Shown in pieces: positions 6,542 to 12,354 of a DNA stretch of 35,006 bases. The notes beneath the pieces are model-generated. The model ran no database searches, was not told the origin of the DNA, and saw nothing but the letters and a program-made list of their open reading frames with translations. How positions within the stretch are numbered: position 1 is the first letter of the stretch; each line of letters begins with the position of its first letter. Source of the DNA: Pedosphaera parvula Ellin514 (GTDB taxonomy: Bacteria; Verrucomicrobiota; Verrucomicrobiia; Limisphaerales; JADJPG01); the NCBI GenBank assembly GCA_945872975.1, contig CAMCCU010000003.1, forward strand, positions 1-35,006. The letters run 5' to 3'. The position numbers and the translations under genes are program-made.

Positions 6542-9454
6542 ATGAAAATCACCCCCTCACTCTTCTACTCTTATCTGAAGTGCCCGACCAAATGCTGGCT
6601 CCATGCGGCAGGCGAACAAACTCCAGGCACCAGCTACTCTGAATGGCTCCAGTCCCAGGACGCATCGTATCGCACCACGGCTACGAGCCGACTGAGGGCT
6701 GACACGCCGCCAGAAGTATGCACCGTCGATCCGCCAGCCGACACGCTGAAGACTGCCCAGTGGCAACTCGCGATGGATGTGACCGTGGCGTCCGAACCTC
6801 GTCGCAGCCAAGGTAACGAGGCTCAAGCTTCTCCCTCTCCGGCATCGACGCACGCCTCCAGAAACAATGATCAGAGCCTCCTCACGTCGGCTGCTACCAT
6901 CATCGAGTCATGCCTTCACGCCGTGGAGCGCATCCCGTCAGAAGGCCGAGGCAAGGCCGCTCAGTTCGTTCCGATCCGTTTCATCTTCCGTAACAAGCTC
7001 ACTACAGACGACAAGCTGCTGCTGGCGTTCGACGCGTTCGTGCTCTCCCAGACACTCGGACGCGAAGTCAGCTTCGGCAAAATCATCCACGGCGACGACG
7101 ATGCCACGGTCAAGGTGAAGACCTCGGCCCTGGCTGGCGAGGTGCGGAAGCGCTTGGAGAAAATCACCGCGCTGCTCTCCAGCGCCGCACCGCCTGACCT
7201 CGTCCTGAACCGGCACTGCGCCGAGTGCGAATTCCAGGCCCGCTGTCGGAAGATCGCGGTGGAGAAGGACGACCTCAGCCTGCTGGCCAGCATGAGCGCG
7301 AAGGAGCGCCAGAAACTCCGCAGCAAAGGCATCTTCACCGTCACGCAACTCTCCTACACGTTCCGTCCCCGCCGCCGGCCCAAGCGCCAGCGCGACAAAC
7401 GGGAGAAATATCACCACTCGCTCAAGGCGCTGGCGATTCGGGAGAAGAAGATCCACATCGTCGGCAGCCCGGAACTCAAGATCGAAGGCACGCCCGTCTA
7501 TCTGGATGTCGAGGGCCTGCCCGACCGCGATTTCTACTACCTCATCGGCCTGCGCATCGGCCACGGCGACTCCGCCGTCCAGCACAGCCTGTGGGCGGAC
7601 ACCGTCGCGGACGAAGGGAAGATTTGGCAGGAATTTCTCGCCATCCTCGAAACCGTCGAGAAGCCGGTGCTGATTCACTACGGGAGCTATGAGACGAACT
7701 TCATGAAGCAGATGGAAGATCGTCACGACAGTCCACAGGCTGAATCGGTCGCGGCAAAAGCAATCGCCTCGGCTCTCAATCTCGTCTCGGTGATGTTCGC
7801 CAAAACATATTTCCCCACTTTCTCGAACGGGCTGAAGGAGATTGCTGGTTGGTTGGGCTACCAGTGGGCCGAGAACAGCCCTTCAGGGTTGCGCTCGATT
7901 AGTTGGCGACACGAATGGGAACAGGCGAGAGAGGAGTCCTCAAAGCAAAACCTGCTTACATACAACTCAGATGACTGTGACGCGTTGGAACTGGTCGCCA
8001 ACGTTATCATGCAGATGAGCCTCCAACCTCCGCTATCAATGACCGACGCCCGTCCGGCTCTCGAAATTGCTCATGCGGATGCCTTGGCGTCGCAAGACAC
8101 GATGTGGCCGAAGTTCGCTAGTCCCATCGACGCCTTTGAATCCATAAACAAAGCCGGCCGCTGGGACTACCAACGCCACAAAGTTTACGTCCGAACCGAT
8201 CAAGAACTGAAGTGCGCCACCAAAGCCGTCAACATGCGGAGTAAGCGAATCGAGCGCGTCAGCAAAGATGTCCAACCCGATCCCGTGGAGGTTTGTCCAG
8301 AATGCCTCCAGAAAACCAAATACACCAAACGAAGAACCAAGACGCTTTACGATGTGCGCTTCACAGAGTGCGGAATCAGAGGTTGGGTGGTTAGGTATCA
8401 AATCAAGGGGCATCTCTGCCGCAATTGTCATCGGTGCTTCGGCACTCCCAAGGAATTTTGGCGGCACGGCAAGTATGGCCGAAATTTGGTTGCGTTTGTC
8501 GTGTTCCAGATGATCGAACTGTGTATCCCCCAGCGCACCGTCGGATACAGCATAAACAGACTGTTCCGACTTGGGCTGGGTCAAGCCGTCATTTATAGTT
8601 TTAAGGCCAGTGCTGCTCTGCGCTACGACGAAACACGGCAGAAGATCATGGCTGTAATGGTGAAAGGAAACCTGATTCACGCAGACGAAACACGAATCTT
8701 GATCAAAGGCAAAGCGGCATACGTCTGGGTCTTCGCGACGTTCCGTGAGGTGGTATATTTCTACTCGGAAACGCGCGAAGGTGATTTGCTTGAAAAGCTG
8801 ATGAAGGAATTCAAAGGCGTTTTGGTGTCCGACTTTTATGCGGCGTACGACTCCATGCCGTGCGCGCAGCAAAAGTGCCTCATCCACTTGATGCGCGACC
8901 TCAACGACGCGGTGCTCGACCATCCATTCGACGAGGAGGTCCGGGGAATCGTGACGAAGTTTGCCGAGATTCTCAGAAGCATCGTGGCGACGATAGACCG
9001 GCGAGGTCTCAAGCGCCACTTTCTCCGAAAACACGGCCTAGAAGTCGAACGCTTTTACCGGCACATGCGGCGCACCACTTACCAGAGCGAAGCCGCATTG
9101 AAGTGCAAGGAACGATTCGAGAAGAATCGAGAAACGCTTTTCACTTTCTTGAACCATGATGGTGTGCCTTGGAACAACAACAACGTGGAACACGCCATCA
9201 AAGCATTCGCCAGGTTGCGTCGGGCAATCGAAGGGTTATCCACGCCGAAAGGCATTGAGGAATACCTGATTCTCTTGAGCGTCTGCCAAACCTGCAAATA
9301 CATGGGCGTGGACTTTCTGGATTTCCTCCGTTCGGGTGAGAAGGACATTCACGCCTTCGCGGAGAGCCGGCGTAAGCGCAAGCGCCGGTCACAAACCAGC
9401 CCGCCGCCCGCCTTGCCGCCGAACACAACCCCGGACAGCGAGGGGCAACCTTAA
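6542..9454 (+). CDS. Fusion protein: RecB/Cas4-like plus RNase H-like nuclease (TM0106 type) joined to an IS66-type DDE transposase
   Basis: The 970-aa open frame has two halves. Residues 1-500 resemble the TM0106/RecB-like putative nucleases. C14/C18 (YLKCPTKCW) and C226-x2-C229-x5-C235 (HCAECEFQARC) match the one-plus-three cysteine pattern of Cas4/AddB iron-sulfur nucleases. An RNase H-like exonuclease domain follows, with YLDVEGLPDRDFYYLIG (320-336) and LLTYNSDDCDALELV (471-485). Residues ~520-970 are an IS66-type transposase: zinc finger C585/C588 and C626/C629, then DDE residues D715 (HADET), D764 (SDFYAAYD) and E883 (NNNNVEHAIKAFARLRRAIEG), with a basic tail. No stop or frameshift separates the halves. 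Residues about 86-119 are encoded by an inserted REP-like palindrome. I found no terminal inverted repeats, so mobility is uncertain. Composition looks less GC-rich after about base 7740. Confidence 0.85.
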   Translation: MKITPSLFYSYLKCPTKCWLHAAGEQTPGTSYSEWLQSQDASYRTTATSRLRADTPPEVCTVDPPADTLKTAQWQLAMDVTVASEPRRSQGNEAQASPSPASTHASRNNDQSLLTSAATIIESCLHAVERIPSEGRGKAAQFVPIRFIFRNKLTTDDKLLLAFDAFVLSQTLGREVSFGKIIHGDDDATVKVKTSALAGEVRKRLEKITALLSSAAPPDLVLNRHCAECEFQARCRKIAVEKDDLSLLASMSAKERQKLRSKGIFTVTQLSYTFRPRRRPKRQRDKREKYHHSLKALAIREKKIHIVGSPELKIEGTPVYLDVEGLPDRDFYYLIGLRIGHGDSAVQHSLWADTVADEGKIWQEFLAILETVEKPVLIHYGSYETNFMKQMEDRHDSPQAESVAAKAIASALNLVSVMFAKTYFPTFSNGLKEIAGWLGYQWAENSPSGLRSISWRHEWEQAREESSKQNLLTYNSDDCDALELVANVIMQMSLQPPLSMTDARPALEIAHADALASQDTMWPKFASPIDAFESINKAGRWDYQRHKVYVRTDQELKCATKAVNMRSKRIERVSKDVQPDPVEVCPECLQKTKYTKRRTKTLYDVRFTECGIRGWVVRYQIKGHLCRNCHRCFGTPKEFWRHGKYGRNLVAFVVFQMIELCIPQRTVGYSINRLFRLGLGQAVIYSFKASAALRYDETRQKIMAVMVKGNLIHADETRILIKGKAAYVWVFATFREVVYFYSETREGDLLEKLMKEFKGVLVSDFYAAYDSMPCAQQKCLIHLMRDLNDAVLDHPFDEEVRGIVTKFAEILRSIVATIDRRGLKRHFLRKHGLEVERFYRHMRRTTYQSEAALKCKERFEKNRETLFTFLNHDGVPWNNNNVEHAIKAFARLRRAIEGLSTPKGIEEYLILLSVCQTCKYMGVDFLDFLRSGEKDIHAFAESRRKRKRRSQTSPPPALPPNTTPDSEGQP
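6797..6898. repeat. REP-like palindromic element, copy A (inside the nuclease-transposase coding sequence)
   Basis: The 24-base inverted arms are 6801-6824 (GTCGCAGCC...GAGGCTC) and 6874-6897 (GAGCCTCC...GGCTGCTAC), with 5 mismatches between arms. They are separated by a 49-base spacer. The element is read through in frame and encodes roughly residues 86-119 of the fusion protein (a segment rich in Ser, Ala, Pro, Asn and Gln). Total arm-to-arm length is 97 bases, identical to copy B, and the spacers are visibly homologous (about 36 of 49 positions match). Confidence 0.85.
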
Positions 9455-9458
9455 CCTC

Positions 9459-9555
9459 GTAGCAGCCGACGTCAGGAGGCTCAAACTTCTCCCCCTCCCG
9501 CATCAACGCGTGACTCGAAGCCAAATGATCAGAGCCTCCTCACGTCGGCTGCCAC
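9459..9555. repeat. REP-like palindromic element, copy B
   Basis: The inverted arms are 9459-9482 (GTAGCAGCCGACG...GAGGCTC) and 9532-9555 (GAGCCTCC...GGCTGCCAC), with a 49-base spacer that aligns with that of copy A without gaps. It starts a few bases after the stop codon of the nuclease-transposase gene. The preceding bases AACCTC are also shared with copy A, so the mobile unit probably includes them. The hairpin could act as a transcription end or mRNA-stabilising structure for the gene before it. Confidence 0.85.
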
Positions 9556-9578
9556 TGGGCGGGGACATTCACCTCCTC

Positions 9579-9650
9579 GTAGCAGACGAGGTGACGAGGC
9601 TCATTTCAATTTCCGGTTTTCAATTTGAGCCTCCTTACCTCGGCTGCTAC
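9579..9650. repeat. REP-like palindromic element, copy C (upstream of the REP transposase gene)
   Basis: The inverted arms are 9579-9602 (GTAGCAGACG...GAGGCTC) and 9627-9650 (GAGCCTCC...GGCTGCTAC), with a short AT-rich 24-base spacer (72 bases in all). It ends 15 bases before the ATG of the REP-associated transposase, so the hairpin lies in that gene's leader. It is probably one of the two flanking substrates typical of RAYT loci. Confidence 0.85.
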
Positions 9651-9665
9651 CATTCAGCCGTCGCC

Positions 9666-10247
9666 ATGAATGAACCCGACTCCAACCGTGCGTTCTATCT
9701 TCCCCGCCTGCCGCGCGAATATTATCAGGGCGACGCGGTGGTTCACTGGACGCTTCCCATTTCGCACCGTCGACGCGGCTGGCTGGACGAACGGTTTCAC
9801 GCCGCGTTCCGTGAACTGCTGCTGCACACCGCCGCGCGCGAGGGACTATTCTGCCCGCCGTATTGCCTCATGACGGATCATCTTCATCTGGTCTGGATGT
9901 GCTTGCGTCTGGATTCCGACCAGCGCAACGGCATGGCCTTCCTGCGCACGCATCTCGAACCGAAACTCGCGCCGCAGAAGTTCCAGCATCAGGCGCATGA
10001 CCATGTGCTCAAACCGGAGGAGCGCCGCCACAACGCGTTTGCCCGCACCTGTCACTACCTTCTCGAAAACCCGATCCAAGCAGAACTCGTGAAGCACCCG
10101 AACGAGTGGCCGTTCAACGGGGCGGTCATCCCCGGCTACCCGACGCTGCATCCGCTTCAGGACGATTTCTGGCCGAAGTTCTGGAGGCTCTACACGGCAG
10201 CAAAGTCGCCGAACGCAGGAAAGATTCTCCGCCCGCCCATCACGTAG
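9666..10247 (+). CDS. REP-associated tyrosine transposase (RAYT; Y1/HUH superfamily)
   Basis: The 193-aa protein starts at ATG 9666; an upstream extension in the same frame runs through two REP copies and is rejected. The HUH metal-binding motif is LMTDHLHLVW with His72 and His74. The candidate catalytic tyrosine is Tyr131 in RTCHYLLENPIQAELV, matching the family's Y-x-x-x-NP-x-x-A-x-LV motif. Such single-strand endonucleases cleave and mobilise REP palindromes and are normally flanked by them, as here (copy C before, copy D after). The TAG stop lies inside copy D. The N-terminal FYLPRLPREYYQGDAVVHWTLP is typical of the family. It is likely domesticated or self-limiting rather than an autonomous insertion sequence. 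Confidence 0.9.
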   Translation: MNEPDSNRAFYLPRLPREYYQGDAVVHWTLPISHRRRGWLDERFHAAFRELLLHTAAREGLFCPPYCLMTDHLHLVWMCLRLDSDQRNGMAFLRTHLEPKLAPQKFQHQAHDHVLKPEERRHNAFARTCHYLLENPIQAELVKHPNEWPFNGAVIPGYPTLHPLQDDFWPKFWRLYTAAKSPNAGKILRPPIT

Positions 10248-10326
10248 CAGCCGACGTGAGGAGGCTCAAGCTGATCGGGCCGCATCCTCGCGAAGGAGAT
10301 TTGAGCCTCCTTACGTCGGCTGCTAC
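10244..10326. repeat. REP-like palindromic element, copy D (overlaps the end of the REP transposase gene)
   Basis: The inverted arms are 10244-10267 (GTAGCAGCCGACG...GAGGCTC) and 10303-10326 (GAGCCTCC...GGCTGCTAC), differing at one arm position, with a 35-base spacer. The first arm supplies the TAG stop codon (10245-10247) of the transposase gene. The element ends 4 bases before the stop codon of the argG fragment on the other strand. Confidence 0.88.
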
Positions 10327-10330
10327 GAAA

Positions 10331-10455
10331 TCACAACCCCTTCAGATTCTTCGCCCCATTCACGGTCGAGTTCACGCGCAGGCGCAGGCCGTTCAGGCGG
10401 ATGAAGCCGGTGGCGTCGTTCTGTTCGTAGTCTTTGGTTCGGTCGGGTTCCATCA
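10331..10455 (-). pseudogene. argG 3'-end fragment (duplicated, diverged)
   Basis: Read on the minus strand, this stretch encodes VVMEPDRTKDYEQNDATG followed by [20 protein letters not shown] and LKGL-stop. It aligns with the last ~38 residues of ArgG encoded at 11110-11230, which has [16 protein letters not shown] and ends NLGN. It shares a perfect 73-base block with argG but differs on both sides of it. There is no upstream argG sequence; the toxin gene begins 8 bases further on. It is therefore a remnant, not a functional gene. It is either the original argG tail displaced by an insertion or a fragment carried in with the toxin-antitoxin module. Confidence 0.88.
10347..10419. repeat. 73-bp perfect direct repeat, left copy (within the argG fragment)
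   Basis: This is identical to 11123-11195 inside intact argG and lies in the same orientation. Together the copies bracket the toxin-antitoxin pair, giving a repeat unit of 776 bases. They mark the recombination limits of the duplication. Confidence 0.95.
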
Positions 10456-11109: not shown

Positions 11110-12354
11110 TTAGTTTCCCAGGTTCTTCGCCCCATTCACGGTCGAGTTCACGCGCAGGCGCAGGCCGTTCAGGCGGATGAAGCCGGTGGCGTCGTCCTGA
11201 TTGTAGGCCTTGGTCGGGTCGGCTTCCATCGTGGCGATGTGCGGGTTGTACATGCTGAACTTCGACTTGCGACCGGCGACGTAGAGGCCGCCCTTGTAGA
11301 GCTTCACGCGCACGGTGCCGGTGACGTTCTTCTGGCTCTCCTCGACGTAGGCCTGGAGCGCAAGACGCTCGGGCGCATACCAGAATCCGTTATAGACTAG
11401 CTCGGCATACTTCGGGATGAACGAATCGCGCTGGTGCATGACTTCGCGATCCATCGTGAGGCTCTCCATCTGGCGATGCGCGTAGTGCAGGATGCTGCCG
11501 CCGGGAGTTTCATAGACGCCACGGCTCTTCATGCCGACGAAGCGGTTCTCGACCATGTCCACGCGGCCGACGCCGTGTTTGCCGCCGAGCTTGTTGAGGA
11601 ACTTCATGACCTGGAGCGGCGTCATAGACTTACCGTTCACGGCCACGCAATCGCCCTTCACGAAATCGAGTTCGACATACTCCGCCTTGTCCGGCGCGTC
11701 TTCGGGCAGCACGGAGAGCGTGGTGAAATAATCACGGTTCTTCTTCGGATCGAAGCTGTCATACCACGGGTCTTCGAGGATGCCGGCCTCGTAGGAGATG
11801 TGCAGAAGGTTGCGGTCCATCGAATACGGTTTCTTCGCGCTGGCCTGCACTGGGATGCCCTTCGCCGCGCAGTAATCGATCATCGCCTGGCGTCCAGGGA
11901 AGTCCTTGCGATACCGCTCGTCACGCCAAGGGGCGATGATCTGCAACTCGGGCGCGAGCGCGGCGGCGGTCAGCTCGAAGCGCACCTGGTCATTGCCCTT
12001 GCCGGTGGCGCCGTGGGCGATGGCGTCGGCTTTCTCGGCCTTGGCGATCTCGACCATGCGCTTGGCGATGAGCGGGCGGGCGATGCTGGTGCCGAGGAAG
12101 TATTGGCCTTCGTAAATCGCGCCGGCGCGGAGCATTGGGTAGATGAAGTCGCTGGCGAATTCTTCCTGGAGGTCGTCGATGTAAATCTTCGACGCGCCGG
12201 TCTTCTTGGCCTTGGCGTTGAGACCCTTGAGTTCATCTTCCTGGCCGATGTTGGCGCAGAAGCAGATCATCTCGGCATTGCCGTAGGTGTCTTTGATCCA
12301 GGAGAGGAGGACGGAGGTATCGAGGCCGCCGGAGTATGCGAGGACGATTTTCAT
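11110..12354 (-). CDS. argG: Argininosuccinate synthase
   Basis: The 414-aa enzyme has normal length for the bacterial type I family. It joins citrulline and aspartate with ATP to give argininosuccinate, the penultimate step of arginine synthesis. The N-terminal ATP-binding loop is AYSGGLDTS (6-14). [13 protein letters not shown] binds substrates and APWRDERY follows. [20 protein letters not shown] closes the C-terminal helix used in tetramerisation. The final ~24 codons include a 73-bp block repeated at 10347-10419. This intact copy ends NLGN, whereas the fragment ends NLKGL, so the C-terminus may have been exchanged by recombination. No other arginine gene is adjacent. Confidence 0.97.
11123..11195. 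repeat. 73-bp perfect direct repeat, right copy (within argG)
   Basis: This is the second copy of the 10347-10419 repeat, covering codons for the ArgG C-terminal helix. Identity stops abruptly at both edges. Confidence 0.95.

Follow-up and report, generated by a model that had tools for sequence, protein, structure and literature searches.

An in-frame GTAG-type REP dimer in a nuclease-transposase gene of Pedosphaera, and unrelated palindromes at the same loops of its homologues

Introduction

REPINs are inverted pairs of REP sequences that are accompanied by a RAYT gene, and they have been named as extragenic elements. The element described here has the same components, an inverted REP pair and a RAYT gene, but unlike REPINs its copy in the window (the whole analysed stretch of 35,006 nucleotides from Pedosphaera parvula Ellin514) is coding. 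The source genome is a draft of 5.37 Mb in 632 contigs which is 76% complete.

Palindromes that are integrated in frame into many unrelated genes have been reported as Rickettsia palindromic elements (RPEs; Ogata et al. 2000, 2002), as related in PMC10969869 and PMC3733652. Two of them, RPE-4 and RPE-6, are described in PMC3733652 as CGTC repeats without a dedicated transposase. The REP of the window differs from them in having a GTAG rather than a CGTC end and a linked RAYT; the element works like an RPE and is not one.

The closest described case is that of the GTAG REPs (Di Nocera, De Gregorio and Rocco 2013, PMC3733652). According to the main text of that paper, such REPs occur in frame inside genes, including genes of Verrucomicrobia and repair genes, and intragenic repeats, most of them in Opitutus terrae (Verrucomicrobia), encode 20-30 residues. 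Different REPs were found at about the same recB site in two Xanthomonas species, and loops were proposed as insertion-tolerant sites. Because in-frame GTAG REPs were published in 2013 and RPEs even earlier, the kind of element is already known. Our locus shares with these REPs the GTAG end, the organisation as head-to-head dimers, the REP-flanked RAYT and the insertion into an ORF. It differs in that members of several unrelated palindrome families alternate at several sites of one gene, and in that this host gene is linked to the RAYT unit. The sections of PMC3733652 consulted here mention neither the host gene nor the REP sequences of the window, and no listing of the host gene with palindromes was found in the open-licence papers searched. 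Judged by these papers, the recurrent presence of several unrelated palindrome families in the same loops of one gene looks new.

The host gene and its insertion loop

The host gene (6542-9454, forward strand) is assigned by profile scores to a 970-residue fusion of a TM0106 RecB/Cas4-like nuclease, an RNase H-like domain and an IS66-type transposase. The protein scores 190.3 bits with TIGR03491 (TM0106 RecB-like nuclease; cut-off 97.45), 68.1 bits with PF13482 and 111.3 bits with PF03050 (IS66 transposase; cut-off 23.1). With NF033517, another IS66 transposase profile, it reaches 177.6 bits, which is under the cut-off of 180. The predicted structure of residues 1-500, based on 32 aligned sequences, has a mean pLDDT of 81.7, and its best fold matches are Cas4 chains.

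In this model, the insert is located between predicted strands 76-83 and 120-131, with pLDDT below 50 at residues 90-98 and 100-115. It forms the turn of a predicted beta hairpin, modelled with low confidence, and the loop is probably disordered. The gain of new protein sequence that had been proposed from the sequence alone is real, and it is confined to this probably disordered loop. Ahead of the insert, a low coding score of 0.03 was obtained.

Nuclease-IS66 fusions are spread over many phyla, and some of the records are labelled as Thermoplasmatales archaea or as cyanobacteria. One locus (L058, G083:C56:102119-102493) retains host residues 1-67 and 906-945, the middle being missing, and resembles a deletion derivative. 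Short pieces of host residues ~906-967 occur in several genomes. When the surroundings of the host gene were inspected by eye, no conserved transposon ends were seen.

The REP dimer within the coding region

The in-frame insert (6797-6898, forward strand) adds ~34 residues (PRRSQGNEAQASPSPASTHASRNNDQSLLTSAAT) that are missing in insert-free homologues. Its palindrome (6801-6897) has a total length of 97 bp, with two arms of 24 nt and a spacer of 49 nt, and the ORF is stop-free across it, just as the sequence-only reading had stated. In the arm scan, the 5′ arm (6801-6824, forward strand) was recognised as a B-type REP unit with the GTAG tag changed to GTCG; it has 3 mismatches to the search pattern and 2 to the B-type sequence. 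The 3′ arm (6874-6897, reverse strand) is an A-type unit with a GTAG tag and 0 mismatches to the search pattern. The organisation of the sequence, two GTAG-type REP units arranged head to head, makes the element REPIN-like.

The window copy is decayed. Its hairpin is weak (RNA fold of -30.6 kcal/mol, z = -2.27) because the arms differ from each other at 5 of 24 positions. Any influence on mRNA translation, as suggested by the sequence-only reading, would have to come from this weak fold. Consensus REP arms begin with GTAG, which is unpaired in folds. The putative stem of a REP unit comprises 4 bp in the A and B types and 5 bp in the C type, where an A-T pair is replaced by a matching C-G pair; stems of 5-13 bp are given in PMC3733652. 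Fold energies of single arms are not clearly better than those of shuffled sequences (z from -0.15 to -1.69).

A second dimer, copy B (9459-9555, forward strand), also has 97 bp, and the spacer homology that had been noted is confirmed: identity to the window dimer is 84% overall and 80% in the spacer, and a separate alignment of the two elements gave 82% over 103 nt. It had been called intergenic, and it does lie outside the ORF. However, it follows the stop codon of the very same gene at a distance of 4 nt and is therefore not an unrelated intergenic copy.

Dispersal of REPs in the source genome

When up to 3 mismatches are allowed, the arm pattern has 91 matches in the 5.37-Mb genome and 0 in a reversed-pattern control, so the palindrome of the window is not due to chance. 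The matches form 66 clusters on 56 genome stretches, and most of these clusters are dimers with GTAG outward, of either the A/B or the C kind. Head-to-head dimers predominate, with 52 dimers counted in these clusters.

Frames that are open through a REP element number 43, several elements giving more than one frame; besides the window's own, 20 of these were scanned with Pfam and 10 with NCBIfam. In nine scanned frames, domain matches were found on both sides of the REP or spanning it, so that together with the window 10 of the 66 clusters are affected. The genes are DUF1549/DUF1553 (C98), MFS/spermidine synthase (C106), DUF7133 (C410), a carbamoyltransferase (C89), a PVC-type cytochrome (C259), DnaE (C580), a helicase (C103) that is presumably HrpA-like, judged from its domain set, and, with single REP units, MutL (C543) and a DHDPS-like protein (C113). 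The genome-wide arm search that had been suggested thus shows that in-frame copies recur: nine or more further genes carry one, either between recognised domains or within them. The DnaE, MutL and helicase copies fit the bias to replication and repair genes published in PMC3733652. Codon-usage scoring of in-frame REPs was also tried; it flagged 8 of the 66 clusters and was given up in favour of domain matches on both sides because it missed the window element.

For DnaE, 91 of 97 genomes were matched, and the linker was readable in 20 of 30 fetched loci. Among these 20, only the window's genome has a C-type REP in the linker. The linker varies in length among genomes of the order (L188-L217) and holds different hairpin-forming inserts, L208 being one such case. 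Linker tolerance is therefore enough to explain much of the pattern.

A RAYT-like gene linked to the host gene

Copy B is followed by a third REP dimer (72 bp, 9579-9650), which is directly upstream of a gene for a RAYT-like tyrosine transposase of 193 residues (9666-10247), and by a fourth dimer of 83 bp (10244-10326) downstream of it, all on the forward strand. The assignment uses profile NF047646 and the flanking REPs; we name the gene RAYT-like because its NF047646 score (39.5-40.4 bits) is under the curated cut-off of 80. The protein has the motifs DHLHLV and YLLENPIQ, which we take to indicate a RAYT. Other RAYT-family matches in the genome score 59.8 (C382), 57.9 (C295) and 88.7 bits (C245). 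A- and B-type REPs flank the gene in the window and C-type REPs flank the C382 gene, which suggests one RAYT per REP type; near the C245 and C295 matches, no such REP arms were found.

The stop codon TAG of the RAYT-like gene is supplied by the GTAG tag of the next REP (10244-10247), and the C382 ORF likewise ends at its REP. Further downstream, two 112-nt copies (10343-10454 and 11119-11230) are 92% identical. The latter represents the end of ORF 11110-12354, and the former may have arisen by movement or duplication of this gene end.

Thirty RAYT loci, drawn from 196 genomes, were compared. Eight of them show at least 74% identity, and all of these (8/8) have A/B REP dimers on both sides. The host gene is directly upstream in four of these eight. 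In the set of 83 host-gene loci, a RAYT follows the host gene in L038, L111, L131, L133 and L143, and a remnant does so in L155; L131 and L143 are apparently identical with two of the four loci from the RAYT set. Nuclease-IS66 gene, REP dimer and RAYT thus constitute one linked unit in five loci, with the unit of the window extending from 6542 to 10326. The gene stop is only 4-5 nt from the next REP in L038, L111, L131 and L143, and a similar distance was obtained for L133 by reading of the sequence, the automated ORF end lying elsewhere. More generally, palindromes occur ~70-124 nt upstream of the host gene (L043, L111, L135, L143, L148, L174) and 4-36 nt behind its stop (L038, L044, L111, L131, L143). 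These flanking palindromes belong to a family which is held by the respective genome.

Filled and empty sites in homologues

A scan of genome contigs revealed 80 host-gene loci in many phyla. Among the 83 host-gene loci considered, 58 could be assessed, 18 lacked a motif-bearing ORF (regular expression) and 7 had a partial N terminus. The assessed loci comprise 24 that are insert-free at every site, 27 with at least one insert, and 7 with apparent inserts that were judged to be artefacts (distant homologues or upstream reading).

All 24 insert-free homologues lack residues ~86-119. They comprise 7 records labelled Verrucomicrobiota and 17 labelled as other phyla (Acidobacteria, Proteobacteria in the wide sense, Nitrospira, Parcubacteria or relatives). 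As insert-free homologues are found in other phyla, the peptide of the window is an insertion, and together with the dispersed family this bears out the proposal that a mobile palindrome has been inserted in frame. That it is recent and unique does not hold, nor are the residues absent from all other homologues: L111, L133, L135, L143, L148 and L151, which include homologues in other families, carry a peptide of this type (SRGNEAQ...SLLTSAAT or closely similar) in the same position.

In other homologues, the place is taken by unrelated sequences, and three more insertion sites exist near residues 63, 185 and 214, between predicted strands or helices (for site 3, between strands 178-183 and 188-193). 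The inserts were named after their peptides. The GTAG REP type is found in L038, L111, L133, L135, L143, L148 and L151, and the HVRES type (GGAGCGCGGAC...) in L043, L114, L116, L141, L155, L169 and L183. A GC-rich type occurs in L113 and L121, and an ASSPA type in L140 and L174, the latter being a record without a phylum. REP and HVRES inserts come from records labelled Verrucomicrobiota at various ranks (one Akkermansia), besides the window and loci of its order. The inserts of L108 (Deltaproteobacteria), L123 (Acidobacteria), L122 and L153 (both Hydrogenedentota) have no clear palindrome or a decayed REP. A fold z below -3 was obtained for 9 of 49 inserts versus 1 of 98 controls; not every insert is a clean hairpin, and old or split inserts dilute the signal.

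Matches per genome were counted including the gene's own copies, with genomes paired to loci by deduction (e.g. G044 with L143). On this basis, HVRES carriers have 18 (G003), 38 (G025), 10 (G075) and 81 (G148) HVRES matches, and there are 0 in G000 and G005 and 15 in G046, whose gene has another type. REP matches amount to 56 (G000), 32 (G044), 370 (G110) and 126 (G187) in genomes with a REP in the gene, to 42 (G005) and 0 (G106) where the gene is empty, and to 23 (G051, another insert), 101 (G025) and 39 (G148, like G025 with HVRES) where it is otherwise occupied. Wherever this was tested, the REP or HVRES in the gene belongs to a family resident in that genome, but residence does not force occupancy.

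Origin and fate of the inserts

We consider it very probable that a dispersed, RAYT-associated GTAG REP dimer has entered a tolerant beta-turn loop in frame and is translated and tolerated. The mobility of these dispersed REP dimers is most likely provided in trans by the RAYT-like protein, whose gene is just downstream of the host gene. One copy would have landed in the nuclease-transposase gene where two beta strands are joined by a turn. As its length kept the frame and this frame has no stop, it would be translated as a flexible loop of 34 residues, which the protein appears to tolerate. The arms would have diverged over time and the hairpin would have weakened. In related genomes, the same few loops may have taken up palindromes because they tolerate insertion, with the physical linkage of the gene to RAYT and REPs as a possible added cause of recurrence.

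Alternatively, a single ancestral insertion may have been inherited, with the other occupants as later replacements or nested insertions. We regard this as possible, if doubtful. The site-2 dimers of L111, L135 and L143 also have 97 bp, spacer identity to the window copy is 67% for L143 and 65% for L135, and the short distance between gene stop and REP is shared by several loci. In L141, another palindrome seems to be nested in what remains of an HVRES insert. To follow the inserts, a core tree of 33 rows was computed, which leaves out L174, L169 and 20 other rows without a site-2 insert; it replaced a first quick tree of 55 rows whose support was low and in which one row (L174) was faulty. 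With site-2 labels assigned by eye, 14 label changes are required on the 33-row tree versus 16-22 in 200 shuffles, so some inserts have been inherited. Against a single origin, one clade is rejected by the AU test for both main types, REP (7 rows, p = 0.0007) and HVRES (6 rows, p = 0.0028). In addition, L111 groups with the insert-free L117, L119 and L112. Branches inside the group are poorly supported, however, and a similar picture could arise by loss or by recombination between N terminus and core.

Two further explanations give the inserts or their host a role. The nuclease-IS66 fusion, whose gene is bracketed by resident palindromes, holds them at fixed loops and is linked with a RAYT in five loci, might be a partner of the palindromes rather than a passive target: a second enzyme, combining Cas4-like nuclease and transposase, that processes or targets hairpin DNA and whose own gene is repeatedly hit. 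We think this rather improbable. Adoption of the insert for a function, e.g. for tuning nuclease or transposase activity, is similarly unlikely, perhaps slightly more so. It would agree with the repeated filling of the same loops and with the three palindromes per gene in L151, L043 and L169, for which even scatter gives Poisson chances of 1.2e-4, 9e-7 and 6e-6 (0.035 for the one palindrome of the window gene), in a test whose genes were picked for carrying inserts. However, unrelated sequences serve equally, the predicted order is low, and the insert-free L110, L117 and L119 have intact frames.

That the element is removed or skipped at the RNA or translation level, like an intron or a bypassing element, we hold to be very improbable. 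Several copies do form stable hairpins, but all nine REP dimers detected in the host gene by arm scan (window included; open frames only) have a length of 1 mod 3, which would be needless if they were removed. "All in frame" is in part true by construction because inserts were found only inside open frames. In L140 (= L049), the frame is broken upstream of the inserts, which are still in frame with their flanks. 

A frame filter on dimer lengths bears on the REP insertion described above. In the source genome alone, 5 of 7 genic A/B dimers (three with one-sided evidence only) versus 5 of 21 elsewhere have a length of 1 mod 3, which is not significant (p = 0.063). Adding the host-gene homologues (8/8), which share ancestry and are not mutually independent, leads to p = 0.0005 (Fisher). 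The commonest A/B dimer size outside genes, 65 bp (13/21), is absent among genic dimers.

Finally, we give next to no credence to an ordinary ancestral peptide that looks palindromic by accident: distant homologues do carry the peptide, six of them at the same place, but 24 of the 58 assessed homologues are insert-free at all sites, the DNA family to which the element belongs is scattered over the genome in 66 clusters, and unrelated palindromes occupy the place in other homologues.

Entry of mobile REP dimers into tolerant loops thus remains our preferred reading. It takes in-frame insertion of REPs to species outside the 2013 survey. In different genomes, a recurring small set of loops in one protein is marked by unrelated mobile palindromes, and this amounts to a natural experiment on insertion tolerance. 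As the nuclease-transposase fusion is linked with a RAYT unit, local hopping or targeted insertion becomes testable. We consider the occupation of one gene by multiple families, together with its RAYT linkage, to be the part that is worth following.
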